Below are positions 11,757 through 22,164 of a stretch of 46,999 bases of DNA, one piece after another. Below the pieces are notes generated by a model, which made no database searches, had not been told where the DNA came from, and saw only the letters and a list, made by a program, of their open reading frames with translations. Numbering within the stretch: position 1 is the stretch's first letter; each line of letters opens with the position of its first letter. The translations under genes were made by a program, and so were the position numbers. Source of the stretch: Halorubrum lipolyticum DSM 21995 (GTDB lineage Archaea; Halobacteriota; Halobacteria; Halobacteriales; Haloferacaceae); contig NZ_AOJG01000015.1 in the NCBI RefSeq assembly GCF_000337375.1, positions 1 to 46,999 of the forward strand, read 5' to 3'.

Positions 11757-12971
11757 ATGCAAGATCTCGTTCAGGACGCTCTCGACAACGCGGAAGCGGA
11801 GAAGCGCGACATGGACGTCGACATGGACGACGACGAGTTCGGGGACCCCCGGATCGTCATCGTCGGTGCCGGCGGCGCCGGCAACAACACCGTCAACCGG
11901 CTGTACAACATCGGCGTCGACGGCGCCGACACCGTCGCGATCAACACGGACAAACAGCACCTCAAGATGATCGAGGCCGACACCAAGATCCTCGTGGGCA
12001 AGTCGCTCACGCAGGGGCTCGGCGCCGGCGGCGACCCCAAGATGGGCGAGCGCGCCACCGAGATGGCTCAGGGCACGATCAAAGAGGTGCTCGGCGACGC
12101 AGACCTCGTCTTCGTCACCGCCGGGATGGGCGGCGGCACCGGGACCGGCGCGGCGCCGGTCGTCTCGAAGATCGCCAAGGACCAGGGCGCCATCGTGGTC
12201 GGAATGGTCTCGACCCCGTTCAACGTCGAGCGCGCCCGCACGGTGAAAGCCGAGGAGGGGTTAGAGGACCTCCGCAACGAGGCCGACTCGATCATCGTCC
12301 TCGACAACAACCGCCTGCTCGACTACGTCCCGAACCTGCCGATCGGGAAGGCGTTCTCCGTGATGGACCAGATCATCGCGGAGACGGTGAAGGGGATCTC
12401 GGAGACGATCACCCAGCCGAGCCTCATCAACCTCGACTACGCGGACATGTCGACGATCATGAACCAGGGCGGGGTCGCGGTCATGCTCGTCGGCGAGACC
12501 CAGGACAAGAACAAGACCCAAGAGGTGGTCAACGACGCGATGAACCACCCGCTCTTGGACGTCGACTACCGCGGCGCCTCGGGCGGACTCGTCCACATCA
12601 CGGGCGGCCCGGACCTCACGCTGAAGGAGGCCGAGGGGATCGCGAACAACATCACCGAGCGGCTGGAGGCGAGCGCCAACGTGATCTGGGGCGCCCGCAT
12701 CCAGGACGAGTACAAGGGGAAGGTCCGCGTCATGGCGATCATGACGGGCGTCCAGAGCGCGCAGGTGCTCGGCCCCTCGACGCAGAAGCAGGCCGACAAG
12801 TCCCGCGCCGCGGTCGACGGCAAGGACCTCGGCGACTCGCGCTCGCGGGCGGCGGAGACGAACGGCACCGCCGGCGCGGCGGTCTCGGGCGGCACCGACC
12901 AGGGCGCGTGGGAGTCCGACGGCGGCAGCGAGCCGACCGAGAAGAACAACGGGCTCGACGTCATCCGCTAG
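11757..12971 (+). CDS. ftsZ2: Cell division GTPase FtsZ2
   Basis: This 404-residue tubulin-like GTPase forms the division ring. It has an N-terminal tail ([15 protein letters not shown]), the glycine loop [13 protein letters not shown] (37-49), the tubulin signature GGGTGTG (125-131), and the T7 catalytic loop NLDYAD (225-230). A variable C-terminal linker (about 345-404, rich in Gly, Ser and Thr) ends NNGLDVIR. The N-terminal tail and the RHH gene just upstream match what I recall of haloarchaeal FtsZ2 rather than FtsZ1. ncsA, which I recall beside ftsZ2 in Haloferax, lies further along in this window, supporting the call. Confidence 0.92.
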
Positions 12972-13002
12972 GCGCCCCGCAGCGACCGACCGCCGACGCG
13001 GC

Positions 13003-13062
13003 GTTCCGGTTCCGATTCCGTTTTCGATTCCGTTTTCGATTCCGATTCCGATTCCGGTTCGA
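13003..13062. repeat. 6-bp tandem repeat downstream of ftsZ2
   Basis: Ten imperfect hexamers run from 13003 to 13062. Five are ATTCCG, two TTTTCG, two GTTCCG and one GTTCGA. The stretch is noncoding, starts 31 bases after the ftsZ2 stop codon, and is poorer in GC than its surroundings. It could act as a T-rich transcription terminator on the plus strand or be a simple slippage repeat. Confidence 0.85.
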
Positions 13063-13232
13063 TCGTTCCTACCGCTCTTCCCGTCCCTCCGCCGGGTTCG
13101 ACCCGCCCTCCGAACGGCGCGAGGACTTAACATCGCACGGGCCGTGGAACGCTACGTGTCACGTCACCAGCCGAGCCGAGGCCCGCGGCGTCGCTCGGGC
13201 GTCGCCCGCGACCGGACCGGGTCCGTGATCCG

Positions 13233-14249
13233 ATGACCGACGCCGCCCTCTACTTCACCGGACCCGAGACCGTCGAAGTGCGGGAGGCGGCGGTCGGCCC
13301 GCCGGCCGCCGACGAGCTGCTCGTCGACACCCGCGCGTCGGCGATAAGCGGCGGGACGGAGCTGCTCGTGTACCGCGACCAGACCCCGAGCGACCTCCCG
13401 GCCGACGAGACGCTCGACGCGCTCGACGGCGACCTCTCGTACCCGCTCCGGTACGGCTACGCCGCGAGCGGCGTCGTCCGCGAGGTCGGCGGCGAGGTCG
13501 ACCCGGAGTGGGTCGGTCGGTCGGTGTTCTCGTTCGTCCCGCACCAGACGAGCTTCCGCGCGACGCCCGACTCGGTGGTCGCGCTCCCGCCGGAGACGAC
13601 CTCGGCCGCCGGGTCGCTGCTCCCGTCGGTCGAGACCGCGACGAACCTCGTCCTCGACGCCGCCCCCCGACTCGGAGAGCGGGTCGTGGTGTTCGGCGCC
13701 GGAGTGATCGGGCTCTGCGTCACCCGGCTGCTGGCCGCGTTCCCGCTGGAGTCGCTCGTCGTGGTCGACCCGATCGAGCGCCGGCGGGCGCTGGCGGCCG
13801 AGCTCGGCGCCGACCGAACGACGACGCCGACCGAGATCGGAGGCGCCGATACCGCCGGTTCGGACCCCGCCGTCGACGACGCCGATCTCGCGGTCGAGCT
13901 GTCCGGGCAGCCGAGCGCGCTCGACGACGCGATCGGGGTCGTCGGCTACGACGCCCGGATCCTCGTCGGGTCGTGGTACGGGACCAAGCGCGATCCGATC
14001 GATCTCGGCGGGCGGTTCCACCGGGACCGCATCGACATCGTCTCCAGTCAGGTGTCGACGATCAGCCCCGAGCTGCGCGGCCGCTGGGACCGCGACCGAC
14101 GCATGGACGCGGCGCTCGACCGGCTCGACTGGATCCCCGCGGACGAGTTGATCACTCACCGGATCCCGTTCGAGCGCGCGCCGGAGGCGTACGAGCTGCT
14201 CGACTCGGCCCCCGACGCGGCGGTGCAGGTGATCTTGGAGTACTCGTAG
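13233..14249 (+). CDS. Medium-chain dehydrogenase/reductase lacking the zinc ligands
   Basis: This 338-residue protein has the alcohol-dehydrogenase-like layout: a GroES-like N-terminal domain and a Rossmann domain with GAGVIGL (about 158-164) followed by an acidic strand end (VVVDP). The usual catalytic-zinc Cys is Ser (AISGGTE instead of GICGTD) and the usual GHE is GYA, so a metal-independent reaction is likely. No four-Cys structural zinc lobe is present. It resembles haloarchaeal 'zinc-binding alcohol dehydrogenases', which I recall near PTPS-like genes. Substrate unknown; membership of the downstream pterin-glycosyl cluster is inference. Confidence 0.82.
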   Translation: MTDAALYFTGPETVEVREAAVGPPAADELLVDTRASAISGGTELLVYRDQTPSDLPADETLDALDGDLSYPLRYGYAASGVVREVGGEVDPEWVGRSVFSFVPHQTSFRATPDSVVALPPETTSAAGSLLPSVETATNLVLDAAPRLGERVVVFGAGVIGLCVTRLLAAFPLESLVVVDPIERRRALAAELGADRTTTPTEIGGADTAGSDPAVDDADLAVELSGQPSALDDAIGVVGYDARILVGSWYGTKRDPIDLGGRFHRDRIDIVSSQVSTISPELRGRWDRDRRMDAALDRLDWIPADELITHRIPFERAPEAYELLDSAPDAAVQVILEYS

Positions 14250-14262
14250 GTGTCGACCGCGC

Positions 14263-15033
14263 TCACCGACGACCGGGGAGTCGCCCGCTGACGGCGAGGT
14301 AGTCCCGCGCGAACACCGCCAGCGACGGGGCGAGGACGACGGGCGCGAGGGACCACACGAGGTCCGTCGGCACCGCCGGAACGAGCGCGACCGTCACGAA
14401 GACCATCTGGACGCCGGCGAGGTACTTGCCGAGGTCGCTGTCGGGGAGGTCGCCGACGGGGAGCCCGCGGAGTTCCCGCAGCCACACGGCCCCGCGGAAG
14501 ACGTAGCGCGCGGCGGAGATCGAGAGGTACCAGACCGGCAGCAACCCCCACGCCACCGCCACCAGCGGCGCGGCGACGAAGCCGAACGTGTCGAACGCCA
14601 TGTCGAGCCGGCGGCCGATCTCCGTCTCCCGACCGACCGTCCGGGCGACGGTCCCATCGAGGTTGTCGAGGGCGACGCCGACGCCGTAACACAGCGCTGG
14701 CACCCACGCGAGCGTCGTCTCCGGCGGGACGACGACGAACCCAGCGACGACGGCGTACAGCGCTCCTCGGACGAACGTGACCGCGTTCGCCAGCCCGAGC
14801 AGTCGGCGCCAGAACCCGCCGGTCAGCCGCCCCGGATCGAGCCCGTAGCCGACGTACCAGAGCTGTCCGGCCCAGCAGAGCCCGGCGACGACGGCGGGAG
14901 AGAGCCCCCATCGGCCCATCGCGTCCGCGGGGAACAGCCGCAACAGGAGGGCGGCGAGCGCGAGCGCGGCGACGAGCGGGAGCCCGACACCGAGCCCGAC
15001 CCGAACGGACCGTCGCCGGCGGGCCTCGGCCAT
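14263..15033 (-). CDS. CDP-alcohol phosphatidyltransferase family membrane enzyme
   Basis: The 256-residue integral membrane protein carries the complete family motif DNLDGTVAR-x8-G-x3-D-x3-D, written here as DNLDGTVAR, then TVGRETEI, then GRRLDMAFD (about 123-148), which binds metal and CDP. It transfers a phospho-alkyl group from a CDP-alcohol to an alcohol. Several membrane helices lie on both sides. It has an unusually long N-terminal region before the motif compared with PgsA-type proteins. It converges on the dehydrogenase at 13233. The acceptor could be a lipid or, given the neighbourhood, a soluble glycosylated metabolite; sequence does not decide. Confidence 0.88.
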   Translation of the reverse strand: MAEARRRRSVRVGLGVGLPLVAALALAALLLRLFPADAMGRWGLSPAVVAGLCWAGQLWYVGYGLDPGRLTGGFWRRLLGLANAVTFVRGALYAVVAGFVVVPPETTLAWVPALCYGVGVALDNLDGTVARTVGRETEIGRRLDMAFDTFGFVAAPLVAVAWGLLPVWYLSISAARYVFRGAVWLRELRGLPVGDLPDSDLGKYLAGVQMVFVTVALVPAVPTDLVWSLAPVVLAPSLAVFARDYLAVSGRLPGRR

Positions 15034-15107
15034 CTACTCGTCACCCCTCGCCTCGGCGATCGCGGCGGCGCGCTCGCGCCGCGGTCGGCGGTCGCGGGTC
15101 GACACGG

Positions 15108-15494
15108 CTATCGGCGCAGGAGGACGACCAGAACGGCGATCAGCGCGACCTGCGCGACCTTGTCGACGGCGCCGAGCGTCCCGACGTCGGCCGGGAACGA
15201 CTTCGCTCCGCCCGCGAAGTTGACGACGTACCAGAGGACGATCTGGACGAGGGTGAAGGCGATCCCGACGGCGTACACCGCTCGCCGGCGGTAGTCGATC
15301 ACGAGGAGGCCGACGCCGCCGACGAAGCCGAGTCCCGCGAGGATGAAACTTATTCCCATGGGGGACGGGAACATCCTGACGCCGAGGAGGAGGTGGACGG
15401 CGGCGGAGACCAGGGCCGCGACGATACCCACCCAGTGGAGGCCGTTCAACGAGCCGAGATCGACCGTCGGCTGTCGCGCTTCGGTTGTTGCCAT
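15108..15494 (-). CDS. Small four-helix membrane protein, haloarchaeal family
   Basis: This 128-residue protein has four likely membrane segments: about 20-38, 42-64, 69-87 and 105-126. A short soluble N-terminus reads ATTEARQPTVDLGSLNGLHW. The ATG at 15494 is the natural start; codons upstream are Arg-rich and lack hydrophobic character. I recall a similar widespread haloarchaeal family (possibly DUF7475) of unknown function. It is separated from the CDP-alcohol transferase by about 75 bases with nothing recognisable, and may form a transcription unit with it. Confidence 0.75.
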   Translation of the reverse strand: MATTEARQPTVDLGSLNGLHWVGIVAALVSAAVHLLLGVRMFPSPMGISFILAGLGFVGGVGLLVIDYRRRAVYAVGIAFTLVQIVLWYVVNFAGGAKSFPADVGTLGAVDKVAQVALIAVLVVLLRR

Positions 15495-15565
15495 ATCCCA
15501 TACACGGACTTCTGTCACATAGGAATACCGCCCCGACCGGCGGGGTCCGGTCAGTGACGGTCGCC

Positions 15566-17530
15566 CTATCGCTCGAAGTCCGGATCCCGGAGGGCGTCGA
15601 TGCGCGCGAGCTCGGCGGCGGTCAGCCGCTCGCCCCCGGCGGCCAGGTTCGAGACGACGTGCGACTCGCTCGTGCTGGACGGGATCGGGACGATCCCCCG
15701 AGAGGCGTTCCACGCGATCACGACTTCGGCGGGCGAGATCCCCCGTTCCGTCCCGATCGCGTTCAGGACGGGCTCGTCGAGGAGGCCGGGCGCCGACAGC
15801 GGCGAGTGGGCGACGACGCGGATCCCGCGCTCGTGACAGCGCTCGACGAGGTCGGTCCGGGGCCGGTAGGGATGGCGTTCGACCTGGACGATCGCCGGGT
15901 CGACCGACCCCGTCGCCAGCACCGTCTCCAGCTGCGCCCGCGAGACGTTACAGACCCCCAGCGTCCGGGCCCATCCCCGCTCGCTGACCGCCTCCAGGTT
16001 CCGCCACGCCGTCGCGAGCGACACGTCGGCGGTCGCGAGTTCGCCGTCCTCGCGCTCGGGAAAGGTGAGCGCCTCCTGCCGCTCGACCGGCTTCTCGGCG
16101 AGCCGGGTCAGCTCCCCTCGGTGTTCGAGCGCGGAGGGCCAGTGGAGCGCGTAGCAGTCGAACGCGTCGATCCCCAGCTCCTCGCGGCTGCTCTCGCAGG
16201 CCGCGAGCAGGTGCTCGTGACGGTGGTTTGTGCGCCACGCCTTGCCGAGGAGGAACACGCGCTCGCGGTCCGGCGCGCCCGGCGCGGCGAGCAGCTCCCC
16301 GATCCGGTGCTCGTTGCCGTAGAGCTCGGCCGAGTCGAGGAGGCGGTAGCCGGCGTCGAGCGCGGTCGCGATCGAGTCGGCGCGCTCGACGTACTCTCCG
16401 TCGCGGTAGCGCGAGCAGCCGAAGCCGACCGCGGGGAGGCGGACCGCGGACGCGCGCCGATCGCTCGTTCCCGGCCTGACGACCGGCGCCGGCGGGGGGT
16501 CGGCTGTCGCCCCGCAGTCGTCCACGGCGACCGACCCCTCGCCCTCGGCGGCCGTCTCGATCGCGTTGCAGACGGCGACGACGTGCGCGCCCCGGCGCCC
16601 CCCGGCCCGCGAGGGAGAGCCCGCCTCGACCGTCGCGGCGAGGCGCTCGACGGCGTCGACGTACGCGTACGGCTCCTCGGGAGAGGTCGGCGGCGCGGTC
16701 ACGTACTCCCGTCCGACGCGACCGAACCGGACGCCGTCGCGGGCGGTCCCCATCGCGCCGGTCCCCTTGAGGTACAGCGAGCCGTCGTCGCCGTGGAGCT
16801 CCAGCCCGTAGAACTCCCGGCTCCGGTGGGGCGCGTAGAAGCTCGCGGTCAGCCTGACCGTCGGCCCCGCGGTAAACGCCAGCGTCGCCTCGACGTGGCT
16901 CGGCGTCGACGGCCGCCGCGCCTCCCGCTCGGGCCAGACGTCGAGGGCGTCGGCGACGCGGACGCGCTCGACCGGACCGAACCACGAGACCAGCAGCGCG
17001 AGCGGGTACACCGCCCCGTCGTACAGGGGGCCGATCTCGAGGAAGGAGTCGGGCCGGTCGTGCCAGTCGGTCACGCGCCCGACGTGGGCGTGGGCGTACC
17101 CCAGCCCCACCGGGCCGAGCCGGCCGTCGGCGAGGAGACGGCCCGCGCGGCGCTGCGAGGGCGCCCGCGGCGTGCCGGGCGCGCAGCCGAGCGCGAGGTC
17201 GCGCTCACGGGCGAGCGCCACCAGCTCCGTCGCCTCGTCGGCGTCGAGCGCGAGCGGCTTCTGCGAGTAGACGTGGCGGTCGGCCTCCAGCGCGGTCCGC
17301 GTCACCGGCGCGTGGGCGGCGTGGCTCGTTAGGTTCACCACGAGCGGCGCGTCGACCGCCGAGAGCGCCGTCTCGAGGTCGGTGAAGGACGGGCAGTCGT
17401 GGGCCGGGGCGAGGGTCGCGGCGCGGTCGCCGTCGAGGTCGACGACGCCGGCGAGCGACAGCGAACTCCCCGGCAGGCCGGCGGCGTACTCCGGCGCGAT
17501 CGCTCCGGCCCCGACGAACAGACAGTTCAC
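15566..17530 (-). CDS. Fusion of Gfo/Idh/MocA oxidoreductase and aldo/keto reductase
   Basis: This 654-residue protein joins two oxidoreductases in one frame. Residues 1-350 form a Gfo/Idh/MocA domain: N-terminal FVGAGAIAP nucleotide loop, then QKPLALD in place of the usual EKP, with the lysine kept. Residues about 370-654 form an aldo/keto reductase with the tetrad in DSAELYGNE (Asp, Tyr), LLGKAW (Lys) and ALHWP (His), and IPSSTSESHV near the cofactor site. Both halves use NAD(P). The GTG start at 17530 has a TATA-like CTATAC about 24-29 bases upstream. The fusion implies sequential redox steps on one, perhaps sugar-like, substrate; that is inference. Confidence 0.9.
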   Translation of the reverse strand: MNCLFVGAGAIAPEYAAGLPGSSLSLAGVVDLDGDRAATLAPAHDCPSFTDLETALSAVDAPLVVNLTSHAAHAPVTRTALEADRHVYSQKPLALDADEATELVALARERDLALGCAPGTPRAPSQRRAGRLLADGRLGPVGLGYAHAHVGRVTDWHDRPDSFLEIGPLYDGAVYPLALLVSWFGPVERVRVADALDVWPEREARRPSTPSHVEATLAFTAGPTVRLTASFYAPHRSREFYGLELHGDDGSLYLKGTGAMGTARDGVRFGRVGREYVTAPPTSPEEPYAYVDAVERLAATVEAGSPSRAGGRRGAHVVAVCNAIETAAEGEGSVAVDDCGATADPPPAPVVRPGTSDRRASAVRLPAVGFGCSRYRDGEYVERADSIATALDAGYRLLDSAELYGNEHRIGELLAAPGAPDRERVFLLGKAWRTNHRHEHLLAACESSREELGIDAFDCYALHWPSALEHRGELTRLAEKPVERQEALTFPEREDGELATADVSLATAWRNLEAVSERGWARTLGVCNVSRAQLETVLATGSVDPAIVQVERHPYRPRTDLVERCHERGIRVVAHSPLSAPGLLDEPVLNAIGTERGISPAEVVIAWNASRGIVPIPSSTSESHVVSNLAAGGERLTAAELARIDALRDPDFER

Positions 17531-17638
17531 GGTCGTACCGAGGCGGCGAGACGTATAGGTGTCCCGGCGGGACCGGTGTTACGCCGCGACGGTCCGTTCC
17601 GCCGGAGCGGTTTAGTCGCCGCGCGCCAACTGACGGTC

Positions 17639-18523
17639 GTGACGGAACCGGGAATGAGCCGCCTCGGGACCGCCTACCTGCGCGGGCTGCAGGCGGTCGG
17701 TCGGCGGCTCGACTACGGGACGAACGCCTTCGAGCGCGAGTGGGACGTGCTCGTCGTCCTCGACGCCTGCCGTGCCGACCTGCTGCGCGCGGTCGCGCCC
17801 GAGTTCGACTTCCTCGGCGAGGTCGAGACGGTCCGGTCGGTCGGAAGCTCCTCCTCCGAGTGGCTGGTGAACACCTTCCTCAACCACCCCGAGACGCCGC
17901 GGACGGTCATGGTCACCGGGAACACGTGGACCGACCGGTACCTCGACGCCGACGCGTTCGCCGCGCTCGACGAGGTGTGGAAGTACGCGTGGGACGACGC
18001 GATCGGCACCGTGCCGGCGGCGGCGGTCACCGAGCGCGCGGTCGGCCTCGCTCGCGGGCGCGATCCGGACCGACTGGTCGTCCACTACATGCAGCCGCAC
18101 CACCCGTTCGTCCCGGACCCCCTCGACGGCGACGACGGGATGGCCCGGACCGGGAGCCACAGCAACGAGGGGAACCCGTGGGTGCTGCTCCGGCGCGGGG
18201 AGGTCTCCGTCGAGCGCGTCTGGCGGGCCTACGAGGCGAACCTCCGACACGTGCTCGGCGAGGTGGCGACGCTCGTCGACAACGTCGACGGCCGCGTCGC
18301 GGTCACCGCCGATCACGGCAACCTCTTCGGCGAGTGGGGGTTGTACGGCCACCCCATGCACACCCCCGTTCCCGCCCTCCTCGCCGTCCCGTGGGCGGAG
18401 GCGACGGGCGTCGACCGCGAGACCCTCGACCCCGACCTCGAGCCGCCCGAGTCGCTGCCGGTGAGTCGGGTACACGGGGAGACGAGCGAACGCGAGCGGC
18501 TCGAGGCGCTCGGCTACCTGTGA
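17639..18523 (+). CDS. Sulfatase-like / alkaline-phosphatase-superfamily protein
   Basis: The 294-residue protein shows the superfamily metal-binding pattern: VLVVLDACRADLL near residues 38-50, HYMQPHHPF near the middle and TADHGNLFGEWGLYGHP near 222-238. A Ser-rich GSSSSEW loop (about 75-81) may hold the nucleophile; no sulfatase CxPSR motif is present, so it is more likely a phosphohydrolase or phosphotransferase than a formylglycine sulfatase. The GTG start at 17639 lies about 27 bases after GGTTTAG. Haloarchaea often carry such proteins near glycosyltransferases. There is no signal peptide, which suggests a cytoplasmic role. Confidence 0.8.
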   Translation: MTEPGMSRLGTAYLRGLQAVGRRLDYGTNAFEREWDVLVVLDACRADLLRAVAPEFDFLGEVETVRSVGSSSSEWLVNTFLNHPETPRTVMVTGNTWTDRYLDADAFAALDEVWKYAWDDAIGTVPAAAVTERAVGLARGRDPDRLVVHYMQPHHPFVPDPLDGDDGMARTGSHSNEGNPWVLLRRGEVSVERVWRAYEANLRHVLGEVATLVDNVDGRVAVTADHGNLFGEWGLYGHPMHTPVPALLAVPWAEATGVDRETLDPDLEPPESLPVSRVHGETSERERLEALGYL

Positions 18524-18623
18524 GCGCCCCGCCGACGGGACGCCGGGTCGGGCGGCGGCGACTCCCCGCCCCGCCTACCGCCACCCTCCGGATTTAGGTG
18601 CGTCGCGCCCCTGGGATCGGTCC

Positions 18624-19001
18624 ATGTACGCGACGACGGTCCTGACGGACTTCGTGGCACAACACTACCTCACGGTCCCCGACCCCGGGCCCGAAGGCGT
18701 GCCGCACTCCCACCACTTCGAGGTGGAGCTGACCTTCCGCGGCCCGGAGCTGAACCAGTACGACTACCTCGTCGACATCGACGACGCCGAGGCGGCGCTC
18801 GCCGACCTCGCCGACCGCTACCGCGACGAGCTGCTCAACGACCTCCCCGAGTTCGAGGGTCGCAATCCGAGCGTCGAGCGTTTCGCCCGCGTGATATTCG
18901 AGCGCGTCACCGACGCGGTGACCGACGACACCGTGGCCGAGCTGGCCGTGACGGTCTGGGAGGACGACGCGGCCGCCGCGACCTACGACGCGCCGGTATG
19001 A
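18624..19001 (+). CDS. 6-pyruvoyl-tetrahydropterin synthase (PTPS/QueD) family protein with Glu at the cysteine position
   Basis: This 125-residue T-fold protein has the zinc ligands His14, His28 and His30 (PHSHHFEVEL), the NPSVERFARVIFE helix matching the family NPTAEN motif, and VWEDDAAAATY carrying the purine-anchoring Glu. The catalytic Cys of QueD/PTPS-II (CxxxHGH) is replaced by Glu24 (EGVPHSH). Loss of this Cys with Glu nearby is known for PTPS-III enzymes, which make 6-hydroxymethyl-dihydropterin. A TATA-like box (GATTTAGG, 18590-18597) precedes the ATG. The stop overlaps the glycosyltransferase start (ATGA), so the product is probably a pterin intermediate for the next enzymes. Confidence 0.85.
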   Translation: MYATTVLTDFVAQHYLTVPDPGPEGVPHSHHFEVELTFRGPELNQYDYLVDIDDAEAALADLADRYRDELLNDLPEFEGRNPSVERFARVIFERVTDAVTDDTVAELAVTVWEDDAAAATYDAPV

Positions 19002-20080
19002 GGGTCGGGCTCGCGCTGTACGGGAGCCTGGACGAGCAGTCCGGAGGGTTCCGCTACGACCGGAAGCTGGTCGAGGGGCTCCGCCGGGCCGGCGACGCCG
19101 TGGAGGTCGTCGAGCTCCCGTGGCGGGCGTACCCGCGCGGGCTGCTCGACAGCGCGCTCCCGGGATTTCGGGACCGCCTCCGCGTCGACGTCGACGTGAT
19201 GCTCCAGGACGAGCTGGCGCACCCGTCCCTCGTCGGGCACAACCGCGACCTGCCGTACCCGGTCGTGGGGATCGTTCACCACCTCCGCGCGAGCGAGCCC
19301 CGGCGGCTCGCCCCGCTGTACCGAGCCGTCGAGCGCCGGTACCTCGAGACGCTCGACGGCGTCGTCTGCAACAGCGCGGCGACCCGTGACGCCGTCACCG
19401 CTCTCGGCGTCGATCCCGACGCGACCGCCGTCGCGCCGCCCGCGGGCGACCGGTTCGACCCCGCGATCGACGACGACGCGATCGCGGCGCGGGCCGGCGA
19501 GCGTCCCCTCCGGGTCGCCTTCGTGGGGAACCTCGCCCCCCGAAAGGGGCTCGACACGCTCGTCGAGGGACTGGCCCGGGCCGACGCCCGCGTCGAGCTC
19601 ACGGTGGTCGGTCGAACGGTCGACGAGGGGCACGTCGCCGACGTCCGGCGACTGGTTCGAGAGCGCGGGCTCGGCGACCGCGTGCGCTTTTCCGGCCGGC
19701 TGTCGGACAACGAGCTGGCCGACGTCCTCCGCGAGGGCCACGTCCTCGCGGTCCCCTCCCGCTACGAGGGGTTCGGGATCGTCTACCTGGAGGGGATGAG
19801 CTTCGGCCTGCCGGCGATCGCCTCCCGGGCGGGCGGCGCGGTCGAGACGGTCGCGGACGGGGAGACGGGCGTCCTCGTCGACCCGGACGACCCCGACGCC
19901 GTCGCCCGCGCGCTCGACGGGTTCGCGGCCGACCCCGACCGGCTCGCCGAGATGGGTCGCGCGGCCAGACGACGGTACGAGCGCCACCCGAGCTGGGCGG
20001 AGTCGACGGTCCGGGTCAGGCGACTGCTCACCGATGTCGTCGACGCCGACGCCGCCTCCGAGCCGGAGGTGGCGACGTGA
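18998..20080 (+). CDS. Glycosyltransferase family 4
   Basis: The 360-residue GT-B enzyme starts MRVGLALYGSLDEQSGGFRY, with a Gly-rich acceptor-side loop. The C-terminal domain begins around LRVAFVGNLAPRKGLDTLVEGL and contains PSRYEGFGIVYLE with the E-x7-E nucleotide-sugar motif, followed by GLPAIASRAGGAVE. No membrane segment is present. It overlaps the PTPS-like gene by ATGA upstream and the methyltransferase by GTGA downstream, so the three proteins are translated together. That coupling suggests that it glycosylates the product of the pterin-family enzyme rather than the S-layer, but this is inference. Confidence 0.9.
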   Translation: MRVGLALYGSLDEQSGGFRYDRKLVEGLRRAGDAVEVVELPWRAYPRGLLDSALPGFRDRLRVDVDVMLQDELAHPSLVGHNRDLPYPVVGIVHHLRASEPRRLAPLYRAVERRYLETLDGVVCNSAATRDAVTALGVDPDATAVAPPAGDRFDPAIDDDAIAARAGERPLRVAFVGNLAPRKGLDTLVEGLARADARVELTVVGRTVDEGHVADVRRLVRERGLGDRVRFSGRLSDNELADVLREGHVLAVPSRYEGFGIVYLEGMSFGLPAIASRAGGAVETVADGETGVLVDPDDPDAVARALDGFAADPDRLAEMGRAARRRYERHPSWAESTVRVRRLLTDVVDADAASEPEVAT

Positions 20081-21150
20081 CGGGCGACGGCGGCGGCCCT
20101 CCGGAGGCCGGCGGCGACGCCCTCGCCGCCGACACCGCCGCGTTCCGGCGCTACCTCCGAGCGAAGCGGTCCGTCGACGATCGGGCGCTCGACCGGCGAC
20201 TCCTCGGAACCCTCCGCGAGCGGCTCGCCGACGGCGCCGCGGCGGGCGAGGGCCCACTCCGCGTGTTGGAGGGCGGGGCGGGCATCGGTACGATGGTCGC
20301 CCGCCTGATCGACTGGGAGGTGCTCCCGCCGGGCGAGACGCGGTACGTCGCCGTCGACCGCGACGCCGGGGCGCTCGCCGGGATCGGTCCGTTCCTCCGC
20401 GAGTGGGCGGCGGAACGGGGCGCGTCGGTCTCCGTCGACGAGGCCGACAATGGCGACGACGGCGACGCGCTCGTCGTCGAGACCGACGCGCGGGCGGTCA
20501 CGGTCGAGCCGGTCGCCGCGGACGCGGTCGCGTTCGCCGAGGCGCACGCGAACGAGTTCGACGCCCTGATCGGGATGGCGCTGCTCGACGTGCTCGACCT
20601 CGACGGGCTCGGACCCCTGCTCGGCGCGCTCGCGCCCGGCGGGACGTACTACTTCCCGATCACGTTCGACGGGGGGACGCGGTTCCGCCCGGTTCACCCG
20701 GCCGACCGTGCGGTCGAGCGCCGCTACCACGCGCACATGGACGCTAAACCCGGCGGGAGCAGCCGCGCCGGCGGCGACGCCCTCGAGCGACTCCGGGCGA
20801 TCGAGGGCGCGTCGCTCCTCGGCGTCGCCGGCTCGGACTGGGTGGTCCGGCCGGCCGAGGGCCCGGAGCAGCGGGTTCCCTCCGGATCTCCGTACCCCGG
20901 CGACGAGGCGTTCTTCCTCCGGCACATCCTCGACACCGTGGAGGCGGCGGTCGGCGAGGTGATCGACGGGAGCGTGGGGGGATCGTCGGCGGGGTCGCCG
21001 TCGGCGGGGTCACCGTCGGAGGACGACGAAGGCCCGGCCGTCGAACTCGACGACTGGCTCGCCCGCCGACGGCGACAGGTCGACGCCGGCGAGCTCGTCT
21101 ACCTCACCCACCAGCTCGATCTGCTCGGGCGGGTCGATCCGGAGACGTAA
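20077..21150 (+). CDS. SAM-dependent methyltransferase of the PTPS-GT4 operon
   Basis: This 357-residue class I methyltransferase has motif I RVLEGGAGIGTMVARL (about 62-77), an acidic residue after strand 2 (YVAVDRDAG) and GMALLDVLDLDGL near motif IV. PGGTYYFPITFDGGTRF follows. A Ser/Gly-rich repeat (GSSAGSPSAGSPSEDD, about 310-325) separates the core from the C-terminus. The GTG start overlaps the glycosyltransferase stop (GTGA). Third member of a tightly coupled operon, it probably methylates the same small molecule. The substrate is not identifiable from sequence. Confidence 0.85.
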   Translation: MTGDGGGPPEAGGDALAADTAAFRRYLRAKRSVDDRALDRRLLGTLRERLADGAAAGEGPLRVLEGGAGIGTMVARLIDWEVLPPGETRYVAVDRDAGALAGIGPFLREWAAERGASVSVDEADNGDDGDALVVETDARAVTVEPVAADAVAFAEAHANEFDALIGMALLDVLDLDGLGPLLGALAPGGTYYFPITFDGGTRFRPVHPADRAVERRYHAHMDAKPGGSSRAGGDALERLRAIEGASLLGVAGSDWVVRPAEGPEQRVPSGSPYPGDEAFFLRHILDTVEAAVGEVIDGSVGGSSAGSPSAGSPSEDDEGPAVELDDWLARRRRQVDAGELVYLTHQLDLLGRVDPET

Positions 21151-21183
21151 TTCGCGCCGACCGGCCGGCCCACACCACCCGAC

Positions 21184-22164
21184 TCAGACCGCCTCGATCG
21201 ACTCGAGCAGCCGGCACTTCCGGCAGACGTCGCGGCTCGTCTTCGAGCCGCAGCGCTCGCACTCGCCGAGGTCGGGCGAGTCGGCGGCGGCGTCGCCGCC
21301 CTCGCGGTACGTCTCTGCGGCGAGCGCGGAGAGCTCCTCGTACCCGGCCATGATCGAGTGGCGGGCGCCGGGGTGGTTCTCCTCTAACTCGTGGATCGTC
21401 GACTGGATCTCGCCGCGGTACGCCTCGGAGGAGTGGGGGCACTCGGCCATGTGCGTCGGGAGGTCGCGGACGTGACAGTAGAGGGCGATCTCCTTCTCGG
21501 GCACGTCCCGGAGCGGCTTCGCGCGCGGGACGAACGCGTCGGTCCCCTCGCGCTCGTCGAAGGGGCCGAGCGAGGCGTCGAAGTGTTTCGCCACCTGTCG
21601 CACGTCGCCCTCGAGGAAGTTCATCATCGCCGTCTGGGCCTCGTCGTCGAGGTTGTGGCCGGTGAGCAGCTTGTCGGCGTCGAACTCGGCGGCGTACTTC
21701 TCGAGGAGGTCCCGCCGGAACACGCCGCAGTACGCGCAGGCGGCCATGTTCTCCGGGTCGCTCTCGACCACGTCGTCCATCCGCACGTCGAACTCCTCCT
21801 CGTAGGAGACGACCTCGTGGCGGAGCGAGAGGTCCTCCGCGAGCTCGACGCAGGCGTCGAGGCTCTCGTCGCGGTACCCCTCGATCCCCTCGTGGATCGT
21901 CAGTGCGAGCATCTCGACGCGGGGGTCCTTTCCGAACACGTCGTCGAGGATCTGCGTCAGCGCGACGCTGTCTTTCCCGCCCGACAGCCCGATCACCCAG
22001 CGGTCGGGGTCGTTCGGCGTCGCGTCCGGATCGAGGAGGGAGTCCTCGCGGACGCGACGTTTCACGCGCTTCTCGACCGACTGGCGGAGGTGGTCGCCAC
22101 AGAGGTGCGCCCCGGAGTAGGCGGCGTGGTGGATCGCGTCGTCGCCGCACCTGTCACACTCCAT
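21184..22164 (-). CDS. ncsA: tRNA 2-thiolation protein NcsA (TtuA/Ncs6 family)
   Basis: The 326-residue protein adenylates U34 of tRNAs for 2-thiolation using sulfur from a ubiquitin-like SAMP carrier. An N-terminal zinc finger (Cys3, Cys6, Cys22, His25) is followed by the PP-loop GLSGGKDS (59-66). A central AACAYCGVFRR and a later AECPHSSEA hold catalytic or Fe-S cysteines. A C-terminal zinc finger (CERCGSKTSRDVCRKC) completes the TtuA layout. The ATG at 22164 gives the family N-terminus (MECDRCGDDA). The frame is open upstream but runs into the repeat region. In Haloferax I recall this gene next to ftsZ2; here they are about 8 kb apart. Confidence 0.93.
   Translation of the reverse strand: MECDRCGDDAIHHAAYSGAHLCGDHLRQSVEKRVKRRVREDSLLDPDATPNDPDRWVIGLSGGKDSVALTQILDDVFGKDPRVEMLALTIHEGIEGYRDESLDACVELAEDLSLRHEVVSYEEEFDVRMDDVVESDPENMAACAYCGVFRRDLLEKYAAEFDADKLLTGHNLDDEAQTAMMNFLEGDVRQVAKHFDASLGPFDEREGTDAFVPRAKPLRDVPEKEIALYCHVRDLPTHMAECPHSSEAYRGEIQSTIHELEENHPGARHSIMAGYEELSALAAETYREGGDAAADSPDLGECERCGSKTSRDVCRKCRLLESIEAV

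Follow-up and report, generated by a model that had tools for sequence, protein, structure and literature searches.

The window analysed here is a stretch of 46,999 nucleotides from Halorubrum lipolyticum DSM 21995 (contig NZ_AOJG01000015.1). It encodes a PTPS homologue, a GT4 glycosyltransferase and a methyltransferase (MT), together with a medium-chain dehydrogenase (MDR) and several accessory proteins (Table 1). In Halorubrum the cluster lies between an ftsZ gene and ncsA (11757–22164 of the window). Judged from sequence comparison, it is one form of a cluster common to haloarchaea and bacteria such as Streptomyces and Rhizobium. The initial annotation had described the PTPS, GT4 and MT genes as overlapping, and the exact coordinates agree: PTPS ends where GT4 begins, in an ATGA at 18998, and a GTGA at 20077 likewise combines the stop of GT4 with the GTG start of MT. 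Its description of the MDR as ligand-free also holds, as the zinc ligands are missing and the only Cys, C162, is part of the nucleotide-binding fold. The CDP-alcohol phosphotransferase and the Gfo/AKR protein that it had placed nearby are confirmed by Pfam and are part of the same cluster.

Table 1. Features of the cluster, with positions in the window
Feature	Position	Strand	Basis
MDR, zinc-ligand-free medium-chain dehydrogenase, BchC-like	13233–14249	+	Pfam ADH_zinc_N, 2.5e-09
CDP-alcohol phosphotransferase	14263–15033	-	Pfam CDP-OH_P_transf, 7.4e-15; motif DNLDGTVARTVGRETEIGRRLDMAFD intact
DUF7475 protein	15108–15500	-	Pfam
Gfo/Idh/MocA–aldo/keto reductase fusion (Gfo/AKR)	15566–17530	-	Pfam Gfo, 1.6e-16, and Aldo_ket_red, 9.7e-42, in a single protein
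Probable alkaline-phosphatase/sulfatase superfamily hydrolase, 289 aa (phosphatase-like, AlkP-like)	17654–18523	+	Weak Sulfatase match of a homologue
SCO6650-type PTPS homologue	18624–19001	+	Pfam PTPS, 7.8e-27
GT4 glycosyltransferase	18998–20080	+	Pfam Glycos_transf_1, 2.2e-36
Class I SAM-dependent methyltransferase (MT), unnamed family	20077–21150	+	SAM motif I; predicted fold

Proteins encoded by the cluster

Within an alignment of 35 haloarchaeal PTPS sequences, residues H14, H28, H30, E24, E85 and E113 are invariant. The three histidines are the predicted zinc ligands, and they are present together with the ring-binding glutamate, as in a canonical PTPS. The catalytic Cys of the CxxxHGH motif is absent: the window protein is free of Cys, and the invariant E24 is found instead in the 35 sequences. 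Gone as well is the His of the DH motif, a member of the catalytic triad, which is replaced in the same sequences by E, A, S, T or other residues, with D68 kept in at least 90% of them. A canonical QueD (CSRPHGH, WDH motif) adjoins QueE elsewhere in the same genome.

The five best matches to the window PTPS are all from Halorubrum, at 95–97% identity. Its best relative of solved structure is SCO6650 of Streptomyces coelicolor (3D7J; 6.1e-16, versus 3.2e-9 for the next, a QueD). SCO6650 is reported to have neither zinc nor the catalytic triad and to be inactive in the PTPS reaction, although it retains the pterin-binding residues, and to our knowledge it has been assigned no function; PTPS proteins of this type may act in binding or as a scaffold. 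In bacterial PTPS homologues HGA replaces the archaeal HSH, with the loss of one zinc-ligand His, and E24 is also missing. The partners that go with the SCO6650 type, namely MDR, GT4, MT, a CDP-alcohol transferase and a riboflavin-type GTP cyclohydrolase, are found here as well, the GTP cyclohydrolase III (ArfA) of the window genome lying at another locus outside the cluster (G000:C30). By its residues, relatives and partners, the window PTPS is classed as a non-canonical member of the SCO6650-type group. In one genome (G100) a window-type cluster (L038, G100:C1:179633-180006) has its PTPS split into two overlapping pieces; a second, divergent cluster there, ordered ArfA-MDR-PTPS-MT (L039), has an intact PTPS.

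Neither catalytic nor structural zinc ligands were found in the MDR, and no Cys is among its invariant columns. Its best NCBIfam relative is BchC (8.8e-17, under the equivalog cut-off), but family and context differ, with no chlorophyll genes. BchC oxidises a secondary alcohol to a ketone, and by analogy the MDR is proposed as a candidate oxidase of a side-chain secondary alcohol. The GT4 protein has a GT-B C-terminal domain with an EX7E motif, in which E257 and E265 are invariant. The MT returned no match in Pfam or NCBIfam. It contains SAM motif I (VLEGGAGIG), its AlphaFold model has a mean pLDDT of 89.5, and Foldseek identified 3MGG as a match (1.4e-11); the MT is predicted on this basis to be a class I SAM methyltransferase with a Rossmann fold.

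As for the accessory proteins, the CDP-alcohol phosphotransferase could serve to add a phospho-alcohol or a lipid. A Haloarcula homologue of the phosphatase-like protein has a weak Sulfatase match (PF00884, 2.4e-4) that falls below the cut-off, and because the structure model is poor (pLDDT 56.7), the protein is still only a probable member of the alkaline-phosphatase superfamily. Among the clusters compared, the Gfo/AKR fusion, DUF7475 and the AlkP-like gene occur in haloarchaeal clusters only.

Conservation and joint loss in haloarchaea

We scored 134 PTPS loci, some of which share a genome, and counted neighbours within 8 kb. An MDR gene is near PTPS in 121 of them, typically immediately upstream but 4 kb upstream in the window. 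GT4 and MT are each found at 97 loci, DUF7475 at 71, the CDP-alcohol transferase at 68, ArfA at 57, Gfo/AKR at 52 and the phosphatase-like gene at 31. Another glycosyltransferase, GT4b, replaces GT4 in 19 loci, and the two occur together in 0/134 (Fisher 3e-13, uncorrected for phylogeny). The gene order is MDR-PTPS-GT4-MT-ArfA in some loci and ArfA-MDR-PTPS-GT4 in those of Haloferax. The window MDR is ~50% and the window PTPS ~80% identical to the Haloarcula counterparts, the MDR used in this comparison being the copy directly upstream of PTPS, which suggests a mosaic origin.

PTPS is present in 106 of 119 haloarchaeal genomes; 12 of the 13 that lack it are also without MDR, and 11 are without MT (p about 1e-12 for the co-occurrence of MDR, PTPS and MT, phylogeny ignored). 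As at least six genera (g3, g5, g8, g12, g16 and g24) have other members that keep the set, several of the losses are independent. The exceptions to joint loss comprise incomplete genomes, a contig edge (G110), a divergent MDR in genus g5 and an MT without PTPS in G034. The co-occurrence of MT with PTPS holds also where the two genes are far apart. Profile searches found no PTPS, MDR or MT in 13/13 Halobacterium genomes; the PTPS and MT profiles found genes in other genomes, and the MDR null (profile A4) is without a positive control. This genus was assigned by a bacteriorhodopsin identical to the sequence taken as that of H. salinarum.

Treated as one set in the initial annotation, the genes do co-occur across haloarchaea, with MDR, PTPS and MT lost jointly among the 119 genomes. 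The phosphatase-superfamily neighbour keeps its proposed place in the cluster at the 31 loci counted above; its family is no more than probable, for the reason given. Given the synteny across haloarchaea and the co-occurrence, the cluster is not due to chance, and the view that its genes form one functional unit is supported.

GTP cyclohydrolases and related clusters

ArfA is found in 119/119 genomes, and with a universal gene co-loss with the cluster cannot be shown. A paralogous ArfA clade (support 99/91) is restricted to ArfA-MDR-PTPS loci. It retains 59 of the 88 residues that are invariant in the remaining ArfA proteins, and N13 is replaced by D or E throughout. Among six genomes sampled with this clade, G066, G086, G092, G100 and G115 have another ArfA elsewhere, that of G092 being two fragments, and G005 has a single ArfA copy. 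At three further loci (L082, L084 and L086, of G022, G044 and G060) a divergent second ArfA is located off the cluster and the cluster copy belongs to the ordinary clade. RibD was not among the genes detected around PTPS at the haloarchaeal loci. MptA is present in 118/119 genomes, separate from the cluster, and lies on another contig in the window genome; the MptA gene of G100 (PF02649, G100:C1:2211344-2212208) is in three pieces and possibly frameshifted.

The ArfA of Haloferax volcanii is HVO_1284 (PMC8305020). Since ArfA and the reductase serve riboflavin synthesis too, their adjacency to the cluster could partly reflect a shared precursor supply. A gene for a HAD-family hydrolase adjoins ArfA in many haloarchaea, with a HAD match in 28 loci, and lies ~2.5–2.9 kb from PTPS in L042, L047, L054, L169, L176 and others. 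It is a candidate for EC 3.1.3.104, the riboflavin phosphatase that PMC8305020 lists as missing from the archaeal pathway.

Two archaeal lineages outside the haloarchaea have homologous MDR-PTPS-GT4-MT genes with GTP cyclohydrolase II (RibA), an enzyme unrelated to ArfA. At L212:1990-3720 (G171:C114) a GTP cyclohydrolase II-MDR fusion of 577 aa is immediately upstream of PTPS and GT4, and L213 contains the run GTP cyclohydrolase II-MDR-PTPS-GT4 with MT and creatininase nearby. A search of plasmids with the SCO6650 sequence as query returned 26 records. The plasmid clusters, from Streptomyces, rhizobia and others, are composed of MDR-PTPS-GT4-MT with varying RibA, RibD, creatininase and CDP-alcohol transferase, and further partners are an LPG-synthase-type membrane protein, cytochrome b561 and a sulfatase. 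Profiles built from the haloarchaeal proteins retrieve the bacterial homologues (MDR <=1e-63, GT4 <=2e-32, PTPS <=8e-14, MT <=3e-15). The bacterial RibD proteins examined have the RibD_C reductase domain only, without a deaminase.

The cluster of Streptomyces fungicidicus encodes CDPOH, MDR, PTPS, GT4, MT, creatininase and RibA. In the Streptomyces cluster RibA a Met is found at the position of E. coli Tyr105, which presumably halts the reaction at the formylated product, and a creatininase is encoded in the same cluster. The other cluster RibAs keep the Tyr and mostly have no creatininase nearby, L213 being an exception. A creatininase-family formamidase removes the formyl group from the formylated cyclohydrolase product (PMC9478397). 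The flanks of the rhizobial loci L241, L243 and L245 encode a sulfatase-annotated protein, cytochrome b561 and a flippase-like protein with an LPG synthase domain; the sulfatase-annotated protein of L241 was tested and gave no Pfam match. On two Streptomyces plasmids (L239 and L240) the SCO6650-like gene is an orphan, with the rest of the cluster missing.

A proposed pathway and its alternatives

Because the cluster is linked to ArfA or GTP cyclohydrolase II, the starting compound is most likely a riboflavin-type diaminopyrimidine nucleotide and not dihydroneopterin triphosphate. From the gene content we consider it probable (roughly 0.6) that the widespread cluster makes a glycosylated, methylated pteridine-type small molecule from GTP. 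Genomic evidence supports an opening of GTP in the riboflavin style, by ArfA in haloarchaea and by RibA in the two other archaeal lineages and in bacteria, and points to creatininase-type deformylation where the cyclohydrolase halts at the formylated product. A RibD-type reductase without a deaminase would then yield 2,5-diamino-6-ribitylamino-4-pyrimidinone phosphate, and in the absence of deamination the pterin-like 2-amino-4-oxo ring should survive. Following the conversion of ribosyl to ribityl, the MDR may oxidise the 2'-hydroxyl to a ketone, the one that GTP cyclohydrolase I obtains by Amadori rearrangement. The 5-amino group could close on this ketone in the PTPS-fold pocket to give a 7,8-dihydroneopterin-like phosphate; a PTPS fold with its ring-binding Glu would be a natural site for such a closure. 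A sugar would be added after ring closure by GT4 or GT4b, and a methyl group by MT. As MptA already supplies haloarchaea with dihydroneopterin cyclic phosphate, one would have to explain why they possess another route to a plain pterin.

The modified-pterin pathway of the initial annotation is therefore retained in part. What stands is the functional unit seen in synteny and joint loss, the chemistry of a GTP-derived heterocycle and the recurrent glycosylation and methylation; the pathway as first worded does not, with the catalytic Cys and His of PTPS lost and ArfA or RibA, not MptA, as the cluster cyclohydrolase.

A narrower assignment of the product is to a charged haloarchaeal pterin, most plausibly sulfohalopterin-2, which we take to be a neopterin glycoside described from Haloarcula. 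The full set of genes is found in Haloarcula, so this compound is still a possible product; a glycosyltransferase, GT4 or in exchange GT4b, is recurrent, and an unusual sugar could arise through the products of the Gfo/AKR, MDR and AlkP-like genes. No sulfonate-forming gene was recognised in the cluster, however, and the cluster occurs in rhizobia and Streptomyces too, from which we know of no report of a halopterin. We regard the assignment as possible but doubtful. Phosphohalopterin, presumably described from Halobacterium, was rejected as the product in that genus: the cluster genes are absent there (13/13 genomes), and the compound, if made, cannot need PTPS, MDR or MT. The product might instead be bound to membranes, if the CDP-alcohol phosphotransferase joins the pteridine glycoside to a phospho-lipid and so generates a lipid-anchored redox pteridine. 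The transferase gene, with its motif intact in the window, recurs at 68/134 loci and in bacterial clusters, and LPG-synthase-type flippase-like proteins or cytochrome b561 adjoin the rhizobial, Microbacterium and Thiodictyon clusters; but roughly half of the PTPS loci have no such gene nearby and such enzymes also give soluble or inositol-type products, so that a membrane-bound product would seem unlikely. Rather unlikely, too, is a hitherto unrecognised trans-domain cofactor or signal in the full sense, namely a lipid-linked pteridine, glycosylated and methylated, whose synthesis bypasses GTP cyclohydrolase I and proceeds via ribityl dehydrogenation and ring closure in a non-canonical PTPS fold.

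The vicinity of ArfA, and of the HAD gene beside it in many loci, could also mean that the genes assist riboflavin or F420 synthesis at steps for which archaeal enzymes are missing. This appears very improbable: at least six genera include members that have lost PTPS, MDR and MT, Halobacterium is without all three, riboflavin synthesis has no use for GT4 and MT, and several genomes with the cluster ArfA clade hold a second ArfA elsewhere; the filling of a riboflavin gap was rejected because of joint loss with ArfA kept (ArfA 119/119, PTPS 106/119). Going by family membership, the PTPS could be expected to use dihydroneopterin triphosphate in the manner of QueD or a folate-type enzyme, but it is without any Cys and without the catalytic His, its best structural relative is SCO6650 and not QueD, and the genome has a separate QueD beside QueE, so that canonical pterin chemistry is barely credible. 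The separate QueD-QueE pair, the location of MptA elsewhere and the loss of catalytic residues likewise led us to reject a role in folate, archaeosine or queuosine synthesis. A pure glycolipid or inositol pathway is disfavoured because the cyclohydrolase links recur in both domains and RibD links are found in bacteria.

The glycosylated pteridine pathway preferred here can be compared with several known systems. One is SCO6650/SCO6655 of S. coelicolor: SCO6650 has the solved structure nearest to the window PTPS, and SCO6655 we take to be a GTP cyclohydrolase II giving the formylated product, whereas haloarchaea use ArfA. The start of archaeal riboflavin synthesis (ArfA, ArfB, ArfC) has the same cyclohydrolase, and the deformylase and reductase chemistry is proposed to be alike. 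Unlike the riboflavin pathway, the cluster is dispensable; it is without a deaminase and without lumazine and riboflavin synthases, and contains in addition MDR, a PTPS fold, GT and MT. Cyanobacterial pterin glycosides likewise combine a pterin or pterin-like core with a glycosyltransferase, in their case a pteridine glycosyltransferase. Their synthesis begins with GTP cyclohydrolase I and uses a catalytic PTPS, and we know of no methyltransferase or riboflavin-branch enzymes among their genes. A 2026 pterin review presents pterin glycosides as established bacterial products, and its parts that were searched make no mention of such a cluster (PMC13259868). No published description of the cluster was found in a survey that covered the subscription literature in part, so an earlier description is possible.

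The comparison unites a group of haloarchaeal genes, whose usual annotations are 6-carboxytetrahydropterin synthase and alcohol dehydrogenase, with orphan genes of Streptomyces and rhizobia in one proposed archaeal-bacterial pathway, and it predicts the precursor. Haloferax volcanii is genetically tractable and allows a test, as its genus has the ArfA-MDR-PTPS-GT4 run. If true, the proposal would mean that there are two routes to pterin-like rings in biology, and it would account both for what SCO6650-type proteins do and for the second ArfA of some haloarchaea.
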